Assembly: GCF_018137945.1 (NCBI RefSeq)
Contig: NZ_CP073089.1
Coordinates: 1-64,000 of the forward strand
From: Brevibacterium sp. W7.2
Lineage (GTDB): Bacteria > Actinomycetota > Actinomycetes > Actinomycetales > Brevibacteriaceae
Length of the DNA stretch: 64,000 nucleotides
Reading direction: 5' to 3'
The position numbers and the translations under genes were made by a program. Positions 101 to 13,184 of the stretch are shown in pieces (the first letter of the stretch is position 1; each line of letters opens with the position of its first letter). The notes beneath the pieces are model-generated. The model was given only the letters and a program-made list of their open reading frames with translations. It made no database searches and was not told where the DNA came from.

Positions 101-1759
101 CTATAGGCGGTGCTGTTGTTTGATGCGGTTTGTGAGTTCGGTGACCTGGGTGTAGACGGCCCGTCGCTCGGCCATCTGCGTTCGAATCTTCTTGTTCGCA
201 TGCATGACCGTCGTGTGGTCGCGGCCGCCGAAGGCCTGGCCGATCTTCGGCAGCGACAGATCCGTGAGCTCCCGGCACAGGTACATCGCGATCTGCCGCG
301 CCGTCGTCAGCGTCCGGGAGCGCGAGGTGCCGCAGAGGTCGTCGAGGGTGAGGCTGAAGTAGGCGGCCGTCTGGCCCATGATGTCGGCAGCGGTGATCGC
401 CGGGGTGTCGTCCTGGGTGATGAAGTCCTTGAGCACCGTTTCGGCGAGCGAGACGTCGACCTGCTGATCATTGAGGTTGGCGAAGGCGGTGACGCGGATG
501 AGGGCGCCCTCGAGTTCGCGGATGTTCGACGAGACCCGGGAGGCGATGTACTCGAGCACCTCGTCGGGGACGTCGAGCTGCTCGCCGGCGGCCTTGCGCC
601 GCAGGATCGCGAAGCGGGTCTCCATGTCCGGGGGCTGGACGTCGGTGAGCAGGCCCCATTCGAAGCGAGAGCGCAGCCGCTCCTCGAAGCCCTTGAGCAT
701 CTTCGGCGGCTGGTCGGAGGTGATGACGACCTGCTTGGCCTCGTTGTGCAGGGCGTTGAAGGTGTGGAAGAACTCCTCGACGGTGGCGTCCTTGCCCTGG
801 AGGAACTGGATGTCGTCGATCATGAGGATGTCGACCTCGCGGTACCGCCGCTGGAAGGCGGGACGGAGCGCGTTCGACGTCCGTGATGAGCCGATCGTGT
901 TGATGAAGTCGTTGACGAACTCTTCGCTCGACACGTACTTGACGCGGATCTCGGGGAAGAGCTGCGTCGCGTAGAACCCGATCGCGTGGAGGAGATGGGT
1001 CTTGCCGAGTCCCGAGTCCCCGTAGATGAAGAGCGGGTTGTACGCCTTCGCCGGTGCCTCGGCGACGGCGAAGGCGGCGGCGTGGGCGAAGCGGTTCGAG
1101 GCGCCGATGACGAAGGTGTCGAACGTGTACTTCGGGTTGAGCTGGGCGACGCCGGGAACGTCGACGGGCGGAGCCGGGGCAGCGGTCGCCTCGGCGATCT
1201 CCGCTTCCCGCATCCCCGTCACGCCCGGCGCCGCCTCGGGGAGAGGGGCCGCGGTCTCCGGGCGGGGGGTGGCGGTCTCGGGTCGGTCCGCCGGGGTCGG
1301 GGCGGGCTCGGCCACCGGAGTCTCCACCGGGGCCGGGGCGGAGTGCTCGTGAGCAGGAGCCGTGGCGGTCTGGCCGGCGGGTGCCGAGGCGGTCGTCGAT
1401 CCCTGGCCGGCCGGCGTCGTGCCGGTGGTCGGCGCGGAGGCGACGTAGTCGGTCTCGTCGATGAGCTCCTCGAAGCGGATCGGGACGTCGAGTTCGGGAT
1501 CGACGACGAACCCGAAGGTCACGTCGAAGCCGATGACCCGAGAGAATTCCCTGGTCAGAGGTTCTCGGAGGCGGGTCTCGATGGTGCGTCGGGAATGCTC
1601 GTCGCGGACGGCGAGGAGGACGAGGGCATTGTCGACGATCGCCTTGGGCAGCGCGAGGTAGAGGAAGCTCTTCTGATGCTTCGTGAGGTCGGCGTCCTGA
1701 TCCAGGTTGGAGACCACCGTTCGCCATTGGCTGATGAGCTCGTTCTTGGAATTCGACAC
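101..1759 (-). CDS. dnaA: Chromosomal replication initiator protein DnaA
   Basis: Initiates replication by binding DnaA boxes and melting oriC; ATP-dependent AAA+ protein. About 552 aa. Visible: N-terminal domain I (starts [12 protein letters not shown]), a long Pro/Ala/Thr-rich linker (about residues 115-205), Walker [12 protein letters not shown], Walker [11 protein letters not shown], and the domain IV signature [13 protein letters not shown] near the C-terminus. I chose the GTG at 1759 because it follows GAGAGGA at about 7 nt and starts the conserved domain; an in-frame extension to 1867 would add 36 unlikely residues. Transcribed away from rpmH, as is usual in actinobacteria. DnaA boxes lie on both sides, suggesting autoregulation. 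Confidence 0.97.
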
Positions 1760-2164
1760 CGTCGATCCTCTCTGTTGTCGTTCGCGGTCGTCCCACAGTC
1801 CACACCTGTGCATGACTTCCACACAGTTTTCCACAGTTTGTGGAGGACTGACGAGTCGACCGGGCAATCCTCCACACGGGTGGATAAGCGTGTGGAAAAC
1901 TACATGATTGTGACTTGTGGAAGACGGCAGTCGACGCGGAGATGAACGTGAGTGAATGGGCCGAGACGGTGACGTGAAACATGATCGGCCGGTTTGACCG
2001 GCCTCTCCGGCCTTGGCTAAGATGGAGTGTCCTGTGTACCGGGCTGCATCCGATTCTGTTCTAGCTCTTATGCACAGGAGTGCTCGGCGGTCGAGACTCG
2101 CACCGCCGTTTTTTGTGAGAACGCGTCAGGCGTTCACCCGCAACCCAGAAATCGGAGACCTCAA
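1760..2164. other. dnaA-rpmH intergenic region with clustered DnaA-like boxes
   Basis: A 405-bp gap between divergent dnaA and rpmH. Between 1790 and 1925 there are many TGTGGA/TCCACA motifs: AGTCCACAC (1797-1805), CTTCCACAC (1816-1824), TTTTCCACA (1827-1835), GGTGGATAA (1879-1887), TGTGGAAAA (1891-1899) and TGTGGAAGA (1916-1924). Most differ from the DnaA-box consensus by one or two bases. They probably serve dnaA autoregulation and/or form part of a bipartite origin. The right half contains the rpmH promoter. Confidence 0.6.
1994..2023 (+). promoter_or_regulatory. Probable rpmH promoter
   Basis: TTGACC (1994-1999) and TAAGAT (2018-2023) separated by 18 bp, close to the vegetative -35/-10 consensus and placed about 140 bp upstream of rpmH. 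This leaves a 5' leader of roughly 135 nt. Confidence 0.55.
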
Positions 2165-4619: not shown

Positions 4620-5250
4620 TCTCTCCGCGCTCGAGGTTCCCCCGGCGGGAACCGAGGAGTACTTCGGTGAGGCGTTCCCGCTGGCCCAGCGCTACGCGGA
4701 GCATCTGGCGACCACGGGCATCGAGTGGGGTCTCATCGGACCGCGGGAGATCGACCGACTGTGGACGCGGCACATCCTCAACTGTGCGGTCGTCGCTGAA
4801 TTCGTGTCCTCCGACGACGTCGTCGGGGATGTGGGCAGCGGAGCCGGACTGCCCGGGATTCCGATCGCGCTCATGCGCCCGGAGGCGAAGGTCGTGCTCA
4901 TCGAGCCCATGGAGCGCCGAGTCGAGTGGCTGAAGATGGTCGTCGACGATCTCGGTCTGAGCAACGTCCGGATCGTCAGGGCCCGAGTCGAGGACCTCGT
5001 CGACGAGGAGATGTTCAGCGTCGTCACTGCGCGGGCCGTCAAGGCGATGACGACACTCGTCGAGTGGACGCACGACGTCATCGGGCCCGAGGGCCGGATC
5101 CTCGCGCTTAAGGGTGAGTCGGTCGAGGGTGAGCTCGTCAAAGCGAAGAAGCTGCTCAAGCGCTACCGCTTCGGGCAGCCGACGATCCACGTCGTGGACG
5201 GCGGAATCCTCGAGGTTCCCAGTCGTGTCGTGGAAATAGCGAAGAAATAG
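4612..5250 (+). CDS. rsmG: 16S rRNA (guanine527-N7)-methyltransferase RsmG
   Basis: Methylates N7 of G527 in 16S rRNA using S-adenosylmethionine. 212 aa. The SAM motif VGDVGSGAGLPGIPIALM (about residues 70-87) and the acidic end of the next strand (VVLIEPMERRVEWL) are clear. Formerly gidB, and normally placed just upstream of parAB as here. The ATG lies inside the last codons of khpB. Confidence 0.95.
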   Translation: MTDLSALEVPPAGTEEYFGEAFPLAQRYAEHLATTGIEWGLIGPREIDRLWTRHILNCAVVAEFVSSDDVVGDVGSGAGLPGIPIALMRPEAKVVLIEPMERRVEWLKMVVDDLGLSNVRIVRARVEDLVDEEMFSVVTARAVKAMTTLVEWTHDVIGPEGRILALKGESVEGELVKAKKLLKRYRFGQPTIHVVDGGILEVPSRVVEIAKK

Positions 5251-5316
5251 AACGAACCAAATGTGGTCTAGGCTGTCAGTAGCTTTGTGAACCCGATGGA
5301 TGATGGAGTGCGCCGA

Positions 5317-6213
5317 ATGCCGATCATGGACGAGTCGTCTCCGATAGGTGCCGCGATCGCTCGCGACAATCGTCGTGCCGACCGCCTTGCGCAGGTCAGT
5401 TTTCCCAAGCCGGATTCCACTCGCATCTTCACGATCGCCAATCAGAAGGGCGGTGTGGGGAAGACGACGACGGCGGTGAATATCGCCGGAGCGCTCGCGA
5501 AGCAGAACCTCAACGTCCTCGTCATCGACATCGATCCGCAGGGCAACGCGAGCACGGCGCTCGGCATCGATCACTACTCCGATGTCACGAGCATCTACGA
5601 TGTGCTCATCGATGATGTGCCGATGCGCGACGCCGTCGCGCAGGCGCCGGACTTCGACACTCTCGTCTGTGTGCCGGCGACGATCGATCTCGCCGGCGCG
5701 GAGATCGAACTCGTGTCCCTCGTCGCCCGTGAGCAGCGTCTGCAGCGTTCGCTCGGTCTCTACCTCGAGGAGCGGGCGGCTGCCGGTGATCGGGTCGACT
5801 ACGTCATCATCGACTGCCCGCCGAGCCTCGGACTGCTCACCGTCAATGCCTTCGTCTCGGCCCGTGAGGTTCTCATCCCCATCCAGTGCGAGTACTACGC
5901 GCTCGAGGGGCTGAGCCAGCTGCTCAAGAACATCCAGCTCATCCAGAAGCATCTCAATCCGCAGCTGTCGGTCTCGACGATCCTGTTGACGATGTACGAC
6001 GGTCGCACGAACCTCAGCGCCCAGGTGGCCGAGGATGTGCGGACCCACTTCCCGGAGCAGGTGCTCGGCACGGCGATTCCGCGGTCTGTGCGGATCTCTG
6101 AGGCACCGAGCTACGGTCAGACTGTCATCACCTATGATCCCCATTCCAGCGGCGCTCTGTCCTACCTGGAAGCTGCTGAAGAGATCGCGAACCGAGGAGT
6201 GGAACGTGGCTGA
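5317..6213 (+). CDS. parA: Chromosome-partitioning ATPase ParA
   Basis: Walker-type ATPase that forms dynamic gradients on the nucleoid and moves ParB-parS complexes. About 298 aa. Deviant Walker [14 protein letters not shown] near residue 40, and DIDPQGNAS and [10 protein letters not shown] motifs are all present. ATG 5317 is preferred because GGAG sits 8 nt upstream; a GTG at 5287 would add 10 residues without a ribosome-binding site. A possible -10 TAGGCT lies at 5269-5274. The 3' end overlaps parB by 8 bp. Confidence 0.95.
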
Positions 6214-7984
6214 ACGCAAGAAGCGCGGGTTGGGACGGGGTCTCGGCGCGCTCATCCCCGACGCTGCGACGAGTGATCGTCCCGTCGATGTCTTCTTCTC
6301 CGGCGGCAGTGCCGAGGAGCAGTCGCGCGGTTCAGCCCCGGCCGAGGACTCGAAGTCGACCCGGACCCGGCGGACCGACCCTGCGGCGTCGATGCAGTCG
6401 TCACGTCGTCGCAAGCCGAAGGCGGACGCCACGGAGACCTCTTCCGCGGGTGGATCCCGGAAGGGCGGCACCAAGGCGTCTGCGGCCACAACGAGCGCGG
6501 CGAAGGGCGCTGCGAAAGCTGGGACTGCGGCCGAATCGGGCACGGGCGCCACGGTCGGCACCTCTGCGAAATCAGGTGCAGCGAAGTCGGCGTCGAAGTC
6601 GAGCGGTGCGAAGACGGGCGGAGCGAAGACCGAGTCGACGGCGAAGTCCTCTTCGGCCAAGTCGTCGACCCGAAAGGCGTCGACAGCGAAATCATCGGGC
6701 GCCAAGACCGGCACTGCGAAGACTGCCACTCCGAAGACCGCGACCAGCAAGGTGCCGGCGTCCGCGGACAAGCGGACCGCGGTCAAGCCTGCTCCTGTCT
6801 CCGACTCCGCAAACGATGAATCGGCTGTAGTCGACGAGCAGACGACTGTACCGTCGGTCGCGCCTGACGATGTTGCCGGTTCGAGCGCGAGTTCTGCGTC
6901 GGTTGAGAGCTCTGCGTCCATCGGCGATTCTCGGTCGATCGACGACGTTGAGACGGCTGATGATGTCCGTGAGCAGCACCCCGGGGTCTACACCTCGAAG
7001 GGCGGTTCGCTCGACGATGACGACGCCGATGTGGACGCCACCGAACCGGTGGATGAGACCATTGACCAGAGTGAGAAGCAGGTCGAAGCCACTGACACTA
7101 CTGAAGTAGTGAACTCCACGGGTGGCTCCTCGAACGACGGCCCCGAGTTCGACGACGGACCCGGTATGGATTCGATCCCCGACACCGCGTTCGGCGAGAT
7201 CGAGGTTGAACTCATCGACCCGAACCCTCGTCAGCCGAGGACGGTCTTCGATGAGGATCAACTCGCTGAACTCGTTCACAGCATCCGTGAGATCGGCGTT
7301 CTCCAGCCGGTTGTCGTCCGACGCAAGCCGGGCGCTGACGAGCGTTACGAGCTCATCATGGGTGAGCGTCGCCTGCGAGCGACGAAGGAAGCCGGCCTCG
7401 CCACGATTCCCGCGATCGTCCGTTTCGTCGATGACACCGATCTGCTCCGTGATGCCCTGCTTGAGAACCTCCATCGCGCTGAACTCAATCCGCTTGAAGA
7501 GGCTGCAGCTTATGGACAGCTGCTCGAGGACTTCAACTGCACCCAGGAGGAGCTGTCGGAGCGTATCGGTCGGTCGCGTCCGCAGATCTCCAACACCCTG
7601 CGTCTGCTTCGTCTGCCCCCGCTCGTTCAGCGTCGCGTGGCGGCCGGCGTGATCTCCGCCGGCCACGCTCGGGCGATTCTCGGGCTCAAGGATCCCGAGC
7701 AGATGGAAGTCCTCGCGCAGCGCATCGTCGCAGAGGGACTGTCCGTTCGGGCGTCCGAGGAAGCCGTCGTCCTCCTCAATCGTGGGGACTCCGTGAATGT
7801 TTCACGTGCAACGTCACGAGTCGCGCCTGAGTTCATCGAGGTCGCCGAACGACTCGGCGACCGTCTCGACACGAAGGTCAACATCACGGTCGGCAAGCGC
7901 AAGGGCAAGCTGAGCGTCGAGTTCGCCAACCAGGAGGATCTCGATCGAATCCTGTCGCTGCTTGGCGTGAAGTCCACCGAGTAG
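6206..7984 (+). CDS. parB: Chromosome-partitioning protein ParB with very long internal linker
   Basis: CTP-dependent DNA clamp that loads at parS and spreads. 592 aa, whereas chromosomal ParB is normally about 300-380. Residues 1-18 carry the ParA-stimulating tip ([14 protein letters not shown]). Residues about 19-329 are low-complexity: first Lys/Ser/Ala/Thr-rich with AKSSGAKTG-like repeats reminiscent of histone H1 or actinobacterial HU tails, then strongly acidic (Asp/Glu/Ser). From about residue 330 there is a normal core: [18 protein letters not shown]-binding [13 protein letters not shown], the helix-turn-helix [19 protein letters not shown] and a C-terminal dimerisation region. Start GTG 6206 follows GAGGAG. 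The frame is open throughout, so the linker is real and not a frameshift. Confidence 0.95.
7799..7812. other. parS-like site inside parB (one mismatch)
   Basis: GTTTCACGTGCAAC, one base from the palindrome GTTTCACGTGAAAC. It lies within the parB coding sequence, which restricts its drift. Confidence 0.5.
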
Positions 7985-8178
7985 TCGCCCGTTCTCTTCT
8001 CCGCTGACCTTCTCGTTGCCCCCTCCGCTGGTTGTGGGCATGCGATCGTGCATCCGCCCTGTTGTGAACGAGTCACATCAGTCGGAGCACCCAGAGCTGA
8101 CTGAGTTGAGCTGATTTCCCCGTGTGGATAGGCGAATCCTTCGCAAGCTGGACGGTTTGAATGGCGCCATTCCCGCTG

Positions 8179-8192
8179 GTTTCACGTGAAAC
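8179..8192. other. parS site, exact
   Basis: Exact GTTTCACGTGAAAC, followed by A. It sits between parB and the IS element; without the element it would be about 308 bp from the next parS. Confidence 0.93.
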
Positions 8193-8218
8193 ATCAGCAA
8201 GCAGAGGTCGATTGGCCC

Positions 8219-8224
8219 GCTAGC
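8219..8224. repeat. Left target-site duplication of the IS481-family element
   Basis: GCTAGC immediately left of the terminal TGT; repeated at 9342-9347. It fits the NCTAGN target reported for IS481. Confidence 0.85.
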
Positions 8225-9341
8225 TGTACTGCCCAGGCAGGTTGGTTGAATTCTTGCGACGACACGATCTGAATTGATGGTATGACGAAGGCCCCCTGAT
8301 GTGGAGTGGAGCTGTCTAAGAAACCGCTTCACAAACAGGAGGCCTTCGTGTCCCACGCTAATGCAGCATTGACCCCAAAAGCACGTCTGAAGATTGCCCG
8401 TCTCATCGTCGACGAGGGCTGGAGTGTCTCCACCGCGGCGAAGCAGTACATGGTCTCCTGGCCCACGGCCAAACGATGGGCGGACCGTTACCGCGCCCAC
8501 GGTGAGGACGGCATGGCCGACAAGCCCAGCCGGCCACGCTCGAGCCCGAACCGCACCCCGCAGGCCATGGTGAAGAAGATCGTGGCCTTGCGCTGGCGCA
8601 AGCGCATGGGCCCGGTCCAGATCGCCTTCCACCTGGGCCTGGCCGCCTCGACGGTGCATGCGGTGCTGGTGCGGTGCCGGATCAACCGGCTGCGCTACAT
8701 CGACAGGATCACCGGCGAGCCGATCCGCCGCTATGAACACTCGTATCCCGGGGCGATGATCCACGTGGACGTCACCAAGTTCGGCAATGTCCCCGATGGC
8801 GGCGGACATCGGTTCCTGGGCCGGCAGGCCGGGGAACAGAACTCACGGGCGACGGCGAACCGCACCGGCCAGCGCACTTCCAGCGGGCATCCGAGGCTGG
8901 GTACCGCGTTCGTGCACACCGTGATCGATGACCACTCAAGGATCGCCTACGCGGAGATCCACAACGACGAGAAGGCCCTCACGGCCATCGCCGTGCTCGA
9001 GCGGGCCGTGGCCTGGTTCGCGGCCCGGGACGTGGAGGTGGAGCGCGTTTTGAGCGATAACGGCTCCGCCTATCGCTCGCACGCCTGGCGTGATGCCTGC
9101 ACCGACCTGGGCATCAAGCACAAGCGGACCCGGCCCTACCGGCCCCAGACCAACGGCATAATCGAGCGCTTCCACCGGACCTTGAACGACGGATGGGCCT
9201 ACGCCAGGCTCTATGGCAGCGAGACCGCGCGCCGCGAGGCCCTACCGGCATGGATCCATGAGTACAATCATCATCGGCCCCACACCGCCATCGGGAACCA
9301 GCCACCCATCAGCCGCTTAACCAACGTCGCTGGGCAGTACA
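8225..9341 (+). mobile_element. IS481-family insertion sequence, complete
   Basis: 1117-bp element with termini TGTACTGCCCAG ... CTGGGCAGTACA. The terminal inverted repeats match perfectly for 12 bp and again in an inner GTTGGTT block (8241-8247 against the right end). The ends are TGT/ACA as usual for IS481. It is flanked by 6-bp duplications GCTAGC, and encodes one transposase whose stop codon is supplied by the flanking duplication. Intact ends, intact gene and identical duplications suggest a fairly recent insertion between parB and the parS field. Confidence 0.92.
8285..8349 (+). promoter_or_regulatory. Inverted repeat sequestering the transposase ribosome-binding site
   Basis: Arm ACGAAGGCCCCCTG (8285-8298) pairs with CAGGAGGCCTTCGT (8336-8349) with one mismatch over 14 bp and a 37-nt loop. 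The right arm contains the Shine-Dalgarno AGGAGG (8337-8342) and the first two bases of the GTG start (8348-8350). RNA entering from outside the element would fold and hide the start, whereas RNA starting inside the loop would not. Confidence 0.65.
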
Positions 9342-9346
9342 GCTAG
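8348..9346 (+). CDS. IS481-family transposase (DDE)
   Basis: Cuts and pastes the element. 332 aa from the GTG at 8348, which has AGGAGG at ideal distance; an in-frame GTG at 8306 has no ribosome-binding site. N-terminal helix-turn-helix (STAAKQYMVSWPTAKRW), second HTH (MGPVQIAFHLGLAASTVHAV), then the rve catalytic core with DDE residues in HVDVTKFG, VLSDNGSAYR and NGIIERFHRTL. The stop TAG (9344-9346) lies in the right target duplication, so the reading frame ends only because of the CTAG target. Confidence 0.93.
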   Translation: MSHANAALTPKARLKIARLIVDEGWSVSTAAKQYMVSWPTAKRWADRYRAHGEDGMADKPSRPRSSPNRTPQAMVKKIVALRWRKRMGPVQIAFHLGLAASTVHAVLVRCRINRLRYIDRITGEPIRRYEHSYPGAMIHVDVTKFGNVPDGGGHRFLGRQAGEQNSRATANRTGQRTSSGHPRLGTAFVHTVIDDHSRIAYAEIHNDEKALTAIAVLERAVAWFAARDVEVERVLSDNGSAYRSHAWRDACTDLGIKHKRTRPYRPQTNGIIERFHRTLNDGWAYARLYGSETARREALPAWIHEYNHHRPHTAIGNQPPISRLTNVAGQYS

Positions 9347-9347
9347 C
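9342..9347. repeat. Right target-site duplication of the IS481-family element
   Basis: GCTAGC directly after the terminal ACA, identical to 8219-8224. It contains the transposase stop codon. Confidence 0.85.
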
Positions 9348-9609
9348 GGGGCCTTGGTGCGATTCGTGAGTGAAACGATACTGTTCAATCAATGAGTTCG
9401 TGTTCGGTTGCCGTCAGTTCGGGGTTGAAGTCGTCGTCGGGTATATCCAGAAGCTCTCCTTCGCCCGTTCGTCGAATGTGTCTGAACCGTTGCTGGTACG
9501 ACGTCCCCAGACGATTCCGTTCGTCGTGGCTGCGGTCTGCAGGCTCGGTGGAATGGCTGAACTCCATGGAACGGCTGATCTCCGTGGGTGATCGGCCCTT
9601 ATTTGATGG

Positions 9610-9623
9610 GTTTCACGTGAAAC
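9610..9623. other. parS site, exact
   Basis: Exact GTTTCACGTGAAAC. Confidence 0.93.
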
Positions 9624-10052
9624 GGAACGGCACCCGGCTTCTCGGCAGGTGTCTTTGCCGCACCCGGGGGACAGTCACCTCTATCGCGCCTTCTGAGTAC
9701 CGCGTCCCCGTTGCACCCGTTGTTCAGCGGCCGCGCTGCCGGACAGTTCAGATAGCGTCAGGCCAACAATCGTTAGGTGAACGGTTGTGCAGTCTGCGAT
9801 TCGACGGTGCTCCAGCATCATTTCCCCGTGACAGCGCCGTTTCGTTGTCGCTGCCGTCGCGTGATTCGCCAAGTTGCATGACCGTTGAAGGAATGGACAA
9901 CTAGGGCTCCCCGCAATGCCGATCACAGATCGCTCGCAGAACGACTATCGGCTGGCCCCTACGCAAGCACAGACCGGCTCGAGCCAAGTTCGGCGCGGCG
10001 CCGTCTCTTGTCCATTCGCAGACCGGCCAATCGCACTTCAGGGGATGAGTAT

Positions 10053-10066
10053 GTTTCACGCGAAAC
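10053..10066. other. parS-like site, one mismatch
   Basis: GTTTCACGCGAAAC; change in the central CACGTG. 127 bp before the next site. Confidence 0.7.
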
Positions 10067-10179
10067 CAGGAAATTCTGGAACTTTCGCACGGTAGTTAGC
10101 GACGGACACCTACTGTTGCGATGACGTGCGTTCTGAGAATGACCATCCGGTGAGAATTCGTTGGAACGAAATGCCTGTG

Positions 10180-10193
10180 GTTTCATGTGAAAC
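10180..10193. other. parS-like site, one mismatch
   Basis: GTTTCATGTGAAAC; change in the central hexamer. 108 bp before the next site. Confidence 0.7.
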
Positions 10194-10287
10194 ACCATCA
10201 TCAGATTCAGCCAATCGGTGCTGAGAATCGTAGTCGGAGCGTCAGATTTGACCTCGCCCTGCAGCCACAATCTGGTCCGCGAGGATG

Positions 10288-10301
10288 GTTTCACATGAAA
10301 C
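10288..10301. other. parS-like site, one mismatch
   Basis: GTTTCACATGAAAC; first base block of the 106-bp tandem unit. Confidence 0.7.
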
Positions 10302-10393
10302 GGACGCGGTGGCGTTGGGATTCTCGTGATTCTAACGTGGAGGTTCGTGGTTCGTCGTGGTTACAGCCAGCCACACGCTGGCTGCTAAGTACG

Positions 10394-10407
10394 GTTTCAC
10401 GTGAAAC
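10394..10407. other. parS site, exact
   Basis: Exact GTTTCACGTGAAAC, head of the second tandem unit. Confidence 0.93.
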
Positions 10408-10498
10408 GGACGCGGTGGCGTAGGGATTCTCGTAGTTCCCACCTGCAAGCTCGTCGTTCGTCGTGGTTTTACAAGCTACGAGCCGGTTGGCGGGTATT

Positions 10499-10512
10499 GT
10501 TTCACGTGAAAC
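10499..10512. other. parS site, exact (16-bp palindrome)
   Basis: Exact core extended to the full 16-mer TGTTTCACGTGAAACA (10498-10513), the best match in the window. Confidence 0.95.
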
Positions 10513-10880
10513 AGACGTTTTAGCGAAACGATTAGATTACCCTCAACCGGCACAGCTGCGGTTCGTCGTGGTCCGTATAGCGTAGACAGTGGTTGAGCAT
10601 GTGCTTCTGTCTGATGTCCCGGGGCTGCCCTCCTCCTGTGCCCCCCTCGCGATCGTCCATAATGGTTGGGTTCTGTTCACTTCCTGGGGTTCGTGGCTAT
10701 GTGGACGAATCAGATGGCGCGTCTGTGTCTTCGTGTTGCCGAGCGTCTGGAGCAGAATCGATCGTAGCGCTTGATCTGCTATCTCCGACAGCACTGGATC
10801 GATGAAGTCGAATCCGGGAGAGAGATGCCAGGGTGCGCCTGATTCACAGAATATTACCCCGCAGTTCGATAGAGCTCGGC

Positions 10881-10894
10881 GTTTCACGTGAAAC
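10881..10894. other. parS site, exact
   Basis: Exact GTTTCACGTGAAAC, 94 bp before the next exact site. Confidence 0.93.
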
Positions 10895-10974
10895 AGGGCC
10901 ACTCGGAGACCATTATTGCCGACGCAGCCGAGTCCCGTGTGAGGCATTGCCAGCATGGTTGAGAATGCGTAGGT

Positions 10975-10988
10975 GTTTCACGTGAAAC
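10975..10988. other. parS site, exact
   Basis: Exact GTTTCACGTGAAAC. Confidence 0.93.
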
Positions 10989-11202
10989 GGCCTGCCCGGT
11001 CCTTCAAGGTTCAAGATGCAGTGTTGCAGGCGCTGTTGTCGACAGTCGTACTAGCCTCCCCAAAGGACCGTAGAGCATGACCTTCTGCCTCGCGTCGTCG
11101 CAGAATGGTCGATAGTGCATTGCGGATACAGCTATTCGGGGCGCTTGTCCGTCTGTTTAGCTGCCGGGCGTCAAATCTTCTTGCCTTCCCTCTGCATCGG
11201 GT

Positions 11203-11268
11203 GTTTCACGTGGAACACAGACGTGGGTGGTTCACGTGGAACGGTGAGTCGGTTGTTTCACGTGGAAC
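11203..11268. repeat. Three variant parS sites at exact 26-bp intervals
   Basis: GTTTCACGTGGAAC at 11203-11216, GGTTCACGTGGAAC at 11229-11242 and GTTTCACGTGGAAC at 11255-11268. All three share the variant right half GTGGAAC and start exactly 26 bp apart, unlike the other sites. They probably arose by local duplication of one variant site. Confidence 0.7.
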
Positions 11269-11568
11269 GGATCGGGCGTTTGCTACCGTGACTACAGTGG
11301 ATCGGCGCCTGAACTATCAAACTTCTCCGCGCCGCCTCATGAAGGCTCGGTCATTGCATCGTATTGAGGTTTCGGCCTTTCTGTAAAACGCGTAGGCCGT
11401 CGTCGCCGAGGCGAATTCATCCGTCAGTCGCCTGAAACTGGGCACTTTGCATGGTGGCCGCGGCGCTGGAAAAGCGTTCAATAGCGAGCCGATTCAAGTC
11501 GCGTCTCTCAATCTCGGAAGTCCCCGCCCGAAGGCGTCTCGACATGTTCCGAGTGAAGCGGTCGGTGT

Positions 11569-11582
11569 GTTTCACGGGGAAC
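11569..11582. other. Degenerate parS-like site, two mismatches
   Basis: GTTTCACGGGGAAC; two changes from consensus, both in the right half. Functional status unclear. Confidence 0.45.
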
Positions 11583-11657
11583 GGCTTTTCCGCGAATGAG
11601 TGACGGGCGAGCGTGCTAGTTCCCTTCTGCTAACCGCGCAATCGAGGGTTCGTCATT

Positions 11658-11671
11658 GTTTCACGTGAAAC
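11658..11671. other. parS site, exact
   Basis: Exact GTTTCACGTGAAAC, the last of the field, about 380 bp beyond the 3' end of the cwlM-like gene. Confidence 0.93.
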
Positions 11672-12005
11672 CTCAGCCAACGTCGTTATGCCGGTCCATC
11701 GCAGCGATCGCCGTACAGTCATTGGTGTCAGCGCTGGACGGTTGTGTATCCGCACTCAGTGGACGACCTCGTCGGCGAGCGGACCGTAAACCGTAAGGAC
11801 TGAGCGCAGTATGTTTCGCGGCCGGTTTGGCAATTGGATAACTTGGGTCCGTCCCACGAGAATTCCAACTCAAAAGGCCGGTCGGTCTGATGAAGATCCT
11901 CGCCGGTCCTAACTTTTTCTGGCGAAGAATCGATGAGAGCTCTCAGGACCCGTCTCGGTAGCGGTTGTGCCAGCGAGTGAATGCATGCGCCAGCGTGTGT
12001 ACGCA

Positions 12006-12065
12006 TCGGCGTCGGCCGTAGGCTTTGATTGAGTGTGCGCCTCGGCGTCAGCCGTAGGCTTTGAT
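12006..12065. repeat. Short duplication of the cwlM-like gene 3' end
   Basis: A 24-bp block at 12006-12029 is repeated at 12042-12065 with one difference (period 36 bp). The second copy encodes the last residues of the amidase-like protein (EIKAYG and stop, minus strand); the first is a non-coding copy just downstream. Confidence 0.7.
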
Positions 12066-13184
12066 CTCGGCGAGACTGAGCGTGCCGGTTGCCGGGTCGG
12101 CATCCTCTTTCACGTAAAGGCGCTGCAATGCCGCCGCGATGCCGTCGGCGATGGCGTCGCGCACCGCGGGGTCCTCGAGGTTGCGGCGATCGTCGGCGTT
12201 GGTGAGGTACCCCGTGACGACATGGACTTTGGGTGTCCGGAGTCGCTTGAGTGACGACCACGTGCGTCCGTGCGAGCGGCAGTCGAGCATACCCGTGCGC
12301 GCGGTGATCTCGCTCTGGATGAGAGAGGCCAGTCGCTTCCCGACAGGCGAGTTGAGATCCGGGTGCTCCTCATGCCCGAAGTAGAACGTCGCCAGACCGT
12401 TCGCCCCGGGCGAGCGGCTGACGTCGGCGGTGACGGTGATGACCGCTGAGGCACCGAGCTGATCTGCGGCGTTGATCTCTGCCGCGTCGCCGTCGAGCAC
12501 GATGGCTCCGGCCCCGACCGCTTCGAGACGGCCGGCCAAACGTCCGGCTACATCTGTAGTGACATCGCGTTCGAGCTTCTTCTGCCACTCGTTCATCGGC
12601 AGCGTGACGAAATCGGTGGTCGTGGTGGCCGCTTCGATGACGAAGGTCCGACCGGCCAACGAGGTCCCGGATGCTGCGACGCGTGCCGTCTCCTCGAGCG
12701 CGTAGAGGTTCCCCGTCGTGTGCTTGCGGTCGACGGCGTCGAGTCCACGGAGAGTCTGCGGGCCGGCGATGCCGTCGACCTTCGCTCCCAGACCCATCTG
12801 CAGCTCCTTGACGGCCGCCTCGGTGGCAGCGCCGTACTCGGCGTCGATTCGGCCGGCATAGAAACCGAGACCCGAGAGACTGCGCTGGAGGGTGAGCACA
12901 TCATCGCCTGTGAGGACCTTGACGGGGTCGAAACGGAGTACACGGTCACCGAGCTGGAAACGGGCACGATCAAGCTCTGTGAACGTCTCAGAGCCGAGCA
13001 CACCGTCGCAGAGGATCCCCCGGGTCTGCTGGAACTGCCGAACGGCGAGTTCGAACGGCCGATCGAAGTCCTCGCCGCGGGGATCTCCGACATTGAGACC
13101 CAGACGCGCCATCTGCGATTTGATCGCCGGCAGGACCTCTGAAGCGTCTCCGCTTCTGAACTGCGGTCGTTCCTGGTGATTCAA
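12048..13184 (-). CDS. cwlM: CwlM-like N-acetylmuramoyl-L-alanine amidase family protein (probably inactive)
   Basis: 378 aa. Two peptidoglycan-binding_1 domains (about residues 7-70, with MARLGL, and 85-150, with LQRSLSGLGFYAGRID and DGIAGPQTLRGLD), then an Amidase_3 fold (about 180-360). The zinc ligands appear lost: the usual DxGHGG region reads VIEAATTTT, the usual SIHAN region reads TVTADVS, and the usual glutamate of E-x-GF-x-SN reads VVTGYLTN. In mycobacteria the positional equivalent CwlM is a cytoplasmic regulator of MurA rather than a hydrolase. No signal peptide. The TTG start at 13184 is uncertain, since no ribosome-binding site is visible. Followed by the parS field and preceded by trxA. 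Confidence 0.85.
   Translation of the reverse strand: MNHQERPQFRSGDASEVLPAIKSQMARLGLNVGDPRGEDFDRPFELAVRQFQQTRGILCDGVLGSETFTELDRARFQLGDRVLRFDPVKVLTGDDVLTLQRSLSGLGFYAGRIDAEYGAATEAAVKELQMGLGAKVDGIAGPQTLRGLDAVDRKHTTGNLYALEETARVAASGTSLAGRTFVIEAATTTTDFVTLPMNEWQKKLERDVTTDVAGRLAGRLEAVGAGAIVLDGDAAEINAADQLGASAVITVTADVSRSPGANGLATFYFGHEEHPDLNSPVGKRLASLIQSEITARTGMLDCRSHGRTWSSLKRLRTPKVHVVTGYLTNADDRRNLEDPAVRDAIADGIAAALQRLYVKEDADPATGTLSLAEIKAYG

Follow-up and report, generated by a model that had tools for sequence, protein, structure and literature searches.

Why should a bacterial chromosome carry some fifteen parS-like palindromes side by side in an almost gene-free place next to parB? The question is raised by Brevibacterium sp. 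W7.2, in which such a parS field lies near dnaA within the first 64,000 nucleotides of contig NZ_CP073089.1; this whole stretch is called the window below. We have analysed the field in the window, in the complete chromosome, in related genomes and in other bacteria. Sequence comparison makes it very probable that the field serves a ParABS system as centromere of the chromosome, and a field of this kind is conserved in most of the genus.

Identification of the parS field

The adjacent parA and parB genes specify a protein with the ParA ATPase domain and one with the ParB_N, HTH and C-terminal domains of ParB (solved relatives ParB/Spo0J, best E 2.6e-51), and the locus therefore belongs to a ParABS system. 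A scan of the window with up to three mismatches revealed 15 parS-like palindromes, of which seven are exact, six have one mismatch and two have two mismatches; all lie between positions 7799 and 11671 (Table 1), and none with three mismatches was found. An earlier reading of the same DNA, made without database searches (the sequence-only reading), had arrived at identical counts. Shuffled versions of the window contained on average 1.15 parS-like matches, and since none of 100 shuffles reached 15 (the largest value being 4), the sites are not the product of chance. When the whole 3.86 Mb chromosome was searched with up to two mismatches, 16 parS-like places were found, 15 of them in this interval, approximately 6-10 kb from dnaA; the canonical palindromes are thus confined to the presumptive origin region. 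The sole place outside, at 2031599, has two mismatches.

The distance from the parB stop to the stop of a convergent amidase gene is 4,063 bp, of which 1,117 bp belong to an IS481-family insertion sequence (IS). Without the IS and one copy of the duplication beside it the field measures 2,940 bp and contains 14 parS-like sites, the fifteenth being inside parB. The sequence-only reading had placed 13 sites in a 2.7-kb stretch, one before the IS and one within parB; each site is where it was said to be, but the unit is the longer one, with the IS inside it.

That the stretch is gene-free and of lower G+C content (GC) was likewise borne out. GC is 0.54-0.61 in 500-base segments starting at 9500-11500, as against 0.61-0.68 (starting at 5000-7500) and 0.63-0.66 (starting at 12000-12750) in the flanks. 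Five open reading frames (ORFs) of 93-177 amino acids in or running into the field matched no Pfam or NCBIfam family at E 0.001, and those tested lack the pattern of low second- and high third-position GC seen in the codons of parA, parB, dnaA, the transposase and the amidase genes. Alignment of the field in five pairs of relatives gave 137 gap runs; 77 of these span a single base and 18 a multiple of three, unlike coding DNA, although single-base gaps at such divergence may be alignment noise. On these three grounds the ORFs were ruled out as real genes. No structured RNA in the window matched Rfam at gathering scores. Terminator-like sites numbered four between 7900 and 12200, against 3.7 expected, and none adjoins parB in the window.

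Distribution of the field in Brevibacterium

The stretch from parA to the amidase gene was taken from 55 genomes of the family (52 of the genus and three of other genera). With the window the genus sample comprises 53 genomes, one of which (L068) ends before the amidase gene; four of the 57 genus genomes were left out, namely G012, G013 and G037, where the locus is on short or broken contigs, and G051, which has no parA of this locus. The last is also the exception among 60 family genomes, the other 59 having a best parA match of at least 73% identity.

Thirty-nine of the 53 possess 7-14 sites, counted with up to two mismatches, in the gap that separates parB from the convergent amidase gene; this gap is 2.1-4.0 kb long in the 39, the window being measured without its IS. 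In 36 of these 39 there is no exact parS from the start of the stretch, approximately 160-300 bp before parA, to the parB stop, and all 39 have one site with one or two mismatches about 185-194 bp before that stop. A different picture is seen in the 13 other uncut genus genomes: in 12 of them 1-5 exact parS occur in the parAB segment, which begins shortly ahead of parA and ends at the parB stop. In the representatives of the three other genera the gap holds 0-4 sites, and 2-4 exact parS are found around parA and parB. One tree was constructed (FastTree, 55 members) from the amidase, ParA and the core of ParB; it groups the 39 fields in two sister clades, the smaller of which also includes L037 (3 sites) and L049 (6 sites). 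Site number is negatively correlated with the number of sites in the parAB segment (independent contrasts, r = -0.34, p = 0.012). The simplest reading is that parS in or beside the parAB genes would be the older state and the non-coding field the later one. That a single genus should show such a change, from parS within and next to parAB to a non-coding field, is less expected.

Conservation of the sites against drift of the spacers

Ten close pairs of fields, which share members and exclude the window, retain 9-13 sites in register over the field, in alignments which favour register to the extent that the sites were picked by consensus match in one row and help to anchor them. Identity is 0.92-0.98 in the sites and 0.45-0.73 in the spacers, shuffled spacers giving 0.39-0.43. 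A control with 20 random placements was run for two pairs only; for L048 and L081 all ten sites are in register compared with 0-4 in the controls. In an alignment of five species, 115 of 142 site columns (81%) are invariant versus 590 of 2,893 others (20%). In nine of its ten site blocks 12-14 of the 14 columns are invariant; in the tenth, where four of the five members are present, none is. Among the eight best non-site segments of this group, those with at least 10 invariant columns are situated at both ends of the field; the letters next to parB are able to form a hairpin followed by T, which we read as a putative terminator. A four-species alignment gave 135 of 196 site columns and 797 of 3,343 others invariant, with 10 of 14 blocks keeping 11-14 columns. 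This conservation against spacer drift is what a functional centromere would lead one to expect, and it upholds the proposal of the sequence-only reading that we are dealing with a dedicated non-coding parS field beside parB, most likely for the loading of ParB.

The field as a probable centromere

In the ParB family, clamps are loaded at parS with cytidine triphosphate (CTP) and slide away (PMC12511625). By analogy, ParB dimers would bind each parS of the field, close into CTP-dependent clamps and slide into the neighbouring DNA. Each parS would be a loading point, and the field would build one large, dense ParB complex beside the origin, 6-10 kb from dnaA, a complex which ParA would move and which would also load SMC-ScpAB. 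The genome encodes both SMC (TIGR02168, 859 bits) and ScpA (PF02616, 137 bits). Some 14 loading sites gathered between convergent genes, in DNA free of genes, would bring many loadings into a narrow and little-transcribed place. The sites presumably lie there because of the freedom from coding constraint and transcription, and the position between convergent genes may shield the clamps from RNA polymerase. A tight cluster would suit SMC loading, given that loading sites lying far apart result in SMC collisions in Bacillus subtilis (PMC8357415).

A number of points weigh against this reading. What the sequence-only reading had named as evidence to the contrary, relatives carrying genes here together with few palindromes, is in part seen further out in the genus: in the 13 uncut genomes mentioned above the gap that follows parB holds 0-6 sites, and in nine of them it is shorter than 1 kb. 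In the four-species alignment, four of the 14 site blocks keep 0-6 columns, and one internal non-site segment reaches 10 of 14. The window itself, compared with its nearest sampled relative (G042), has only six of 14 sites in register, barely above the 0-5 of 20 controls, and three or four with three more distant relatives. With so few sites in register and counts of 14 in the window, 12 in G042 and 12 in G006, it appears that on this branch positions turn over while the number stays. Furthermore, an IS and local duplications are tolerated within the field. Lastly, in Corynebacterium glutamicum strains with a single parS, growth and segregation are near normal, as is most of the chromosome folding (PMC7083940), and so a need for 14 sites is unexplained.

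Spacer identity between the window and G042 is 0.42, no higher than with shuffled spacers. The ParA proteins of the two are 100% identical (96% at the nucleotide level), yet identity at fourfold sites, 0.87 for parA, drops to 0.64 over the final 270 codons of parB and is 0.72 for the amidase gene, which hints at uneven recombination along the locus.

Could it be that only a few of the sites work, the others having been left behind passively by tandem duplication in gene-free DNA? The window does contain a three-copy duplication of approximately 105 bp, a 26-bp triplet and two sites with two mismatches, and both the near-sufficiency of one parS in C. glutamicum (PMC7083940) and the poor register with G042 would suit this explanation. 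To set against these are the flanks and the close pairs. When 30-nt ungapped flanks were compared between sites of the same field in the 39 fields, omitting pairs less than 44 bp apart, only 4 of 3,916 comparisons were at least 60% identical (3 of 15,119 at random positions); recent duplication of flanks is therefore rare. Moreover, the close pairs keep nearly all of their sites, near-parS included, while their spacers approach saturation. On balance we consider passive leftovers an improbable explanation. It is highly unlikely that, instead of being the segregation centromere, the sites act as a sink that buffers free ParB or as a regulatory element that controls par expression: many sites do lie near the gene of their binding protein, but the field is 3' of parB between convergent genes, away from the par promoter, and there is just one other parS-like place in the chromosome. 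Because that place has two mismatches and stands alone, nothing else could serve as the centromere.

Spacing of the sites

Measured by the coefficient of variation, site spacing is in all 39 fields less variable than the average under random placement (mean 0.43 versus 0.82), in 31 of them at p < 0.05. Since fields of relatives cannot count as independent, a thinned set of 18 genomes was selected by hand, in which 12 fields are evenly spaced at p < 0.05. Such evenness in many fields is, like the change within the genus, less expected. The median of 367 spacings is 250 bp, with quartiles of 187 and 332 bp. The spacing in the window is not more even than chance (coefficient of variation 0.73, p = 0.33). 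For other families a 900-bp chaining (clustering) rule was built into the null. Sixteen of 60 loci had clusters of at least seven sites; eight of the 16, in five of six families, were even at p < 0.05, and three were at or above the null mean, strongly so in the case of L144, a 28-bp tandem array. No helical phasing of the sites was observed at periods of 10.3, 10.5, 10.7 or 11.0.

Two candidates for the cause of the even spacing are a preferred distance between ParB loading points, and loss of close repeats coupled with selection on site number. It is doubtful that the effect is purely mutational, close copies of the 14-bp repeat being lost through slippage. Among the 174 spacings of the thinned set those below 100 bp are indeed depleted (11% observed, 30% expected), but so are those above 500 bp (5% versus 14%), a deficit not to be expected if only close copies were lost. 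Among the matches listed in the open-licence literature we found no earlier account of Brevibacterium parS or of even parS spacing; where PMC12511625 uses the words "regularly spaced" they describe ParB complexes in cells and not parS sites.

Comparison with other bacteria

The median number of parS sites with at most one mismatch is 6 in 138 genomes of the order outside the genus and 10 in 57 genus genomes; five of the 138 have at least 13, the count of the window. From 136 non-genus genomes of the order with a ParA match, 60 loci were picked by hand across families, and 18 of these have at least eight sites within 4 kb near parA, either upstream of parA or downstream of parB. Families f3, f6, f8, f11, f13, f15 and f19 account for them, with 8-12 sites within 4 kb beside parAB. 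In f13, f19, f8 and part of f3 the clusters mostly precede parA; in f6 and f11 they mostly follow parB. Many of their sites are outside coding signal by a rough codon-GC rule, which misses real genes (part of the L048 parB was scored as non-coding). Of 80 named loci 46 were counted, and at least 10 sites in 4 kb were found in B. sediminis (11 in strain FXJ8.269), Arthrobacter crusticola and Nesterenkonia sandarakina. The window field is at the dense end of a recurrent arrangement, and dense clusters are not unique to it.

This kind of field is already known, and matches the cluster of Myxococcus xanthus and those of other actinobacteria. In M. xanthus approximately 22 parS are packed into about 3 kb at a distance of some 4 kb from parA, and its purified ParB shifts a probe holding the whole cluster (PMC3899335); PMC3778016 gives 24 sites upstream of parAB. 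The M. xanthus cluster is upstream of parA whereas the window field is directly downstream of parB, and it has more sites (the window has 14 in 2,940 bp without the IS, rather than 20 or more in about 3 kb), the consensus TGTTCCACGTGGAACG and a host of a different phylum. C. glutamicum, like the host of the window an actinobacterium with a single origin-proximal cluster, has ten sites, nine of them intergenic, from which SMC-dependent folding proceeds (PMC7083940); these are distributed over 35 kb, in contrast to 14 over 2.9 kb. Many origin-proximal parS are also a feature of Streptomyces (16 or 17 in S. venezuelae; PMC12511625), but in four Streptomyces loci no 4 kb of the 20 kb around parA held more than 3-4, a spread and not a field. 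The contention of the sequence-only reading that most bacteria have scattered parS is not supported in that form, in view of the M. xanthus cluster (PMC3899335), the 18 dense loci of the order and the statement in PMC8357415 that scattering is restricted to few lineages.

Several unusual loci were encountered. G335, of the same phylum as the window (family f40), has 128 parS-like sites with at most one mismatch (none in a reversed-pattern control), scattered across more than 3 Mb of its chromosome; PMC10197239 quotes one to 20 per genome, far fewer than here. At least eight pairs of sites among the places listed are 34-36 bp apart, and several of its 12 examined loci (L092-L103) share a short repeat around the sites. 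Iteron-like arrays precede parA in L144 (G131), where six sites recur every 28 bp exactly between 813 and 673 bp ahead of the gene, and in L130 (G115), where five recur every 54 bp exactly between 774 and 558 bp ahead of it. Family f7 yielded no parS with up to one mismatch in any of 10 sampled genomes; L127, one of three f7 loci examined (L126-L128), has three copies of GTTCCACGTGGAAC near parAB, possibly a shifted parS consensus.

Organization of the locus

The features of the locus are collected in Table 1. The IS481 copy gave a single match in the genome (40 of 121 candidates scored). Its transposase frame runs past the end of the element, the stop codon TAG being situated in the duplicated target. 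The three head-to-tail copies are a local duplication.

Table 1. Coordinates of genes, parS-like sites and repeats at the parABS locus of the window
Feature	Position	Strand	Evidence or remark
dnaA, origin-side landmark	101..1867	-	NCBIfam TIGR00362 8.7e-148; ~6 kb from first site
parA, ParA ATPase, 308 aa	5287..6213	+	Pfam AAA_31 9.4e-58
parB, 592 aa	6206..7984	+	Pfam domains ParB_N, HTH_ParB, ParB_C
near-parS	7799..7812	.	1 mismatch; within parB
parS exact	8179..8192	.	between parB and IS481
6-bp duplication, left copy	8219..8224	.	GCTAGC
IS481-family insertion sequence, within field	8225..9341	+	NCBIfam transpos_IS481 8.7e-102; inverted ends
IS481 transposase ORF	8306..9346		
6-bp duplication, right copy	9342..9347	.	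GCTAGC
parS-field part, non-coding	9348..12047	.	lower GC; between convergent parB and amidase genes
parS exact	9610..9623	.	
near-parS	10053..10066	.	1 mismatch
near-parS	10180..10193	.	1 mismatch
three head-to-tail copies	10262..10573	+	spacing 106 and 105; one parS each; 79% and 60% identical to first
near-parS	10288..10301	.	1 mismatch
parS exact	10394..10407	.	
parS exact	10499..10512	.	
parS exact	10881..10894	.	
parS exact	10975..10988	.	
near-parS	11203..11216	.	1 mismatch; start of triplet at exact 26-bp steps
near-parS	11229..11242	.	2 mismatches; second of 26-bp triplet
near-parS	11255..11268	.	1 mismatch; third of 26-bp triplet
near-parS	11569..11582	.	2 mismatches
parS exact	11658..11671	.	
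N-acetylmuramoyl-L-alanine amidase-like gene, convergent with parB	12048..13184	-	Pfam Amidase_3 2.4e-18, PG_binding_1 4.9e-25; right field boundary

In the ParB of the window, a linker of approximately 290 residues separates the ParB core from an N-terminal peptide. Of the 13 uncut genus genomes that have no seven-site field, 10 have a linker of 70-153 residues. ParB length and site number have a rank correlation of 0.59, but the idea that longer linkers go with more sites was not supported by independent contrasts (r = 0.18, p = 0.18).

Significance

We tentatively suggest, as one possibility, that centromeres in the order can be measured fields of about ten parS some 250 bp apart, the sequence being otherwise free and selection acting on number and distance; such fields would have arisen or moved repeatedly, and in Brevibacterium would have replaced parS in or beside parAB. 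If this is true, the distance between ParB loading points would be a selected property of the partition complex, and the field of the window would be one still changing, which duplication has enlarged and an IS has interrupted. A genus which has both gene-associated parS and a non-coding field, with conserved sites and drifting spacers, makes site number and spacing testable by natural comparisons, and bears on the question of why bacteria keep many parS when one nearly suffices.

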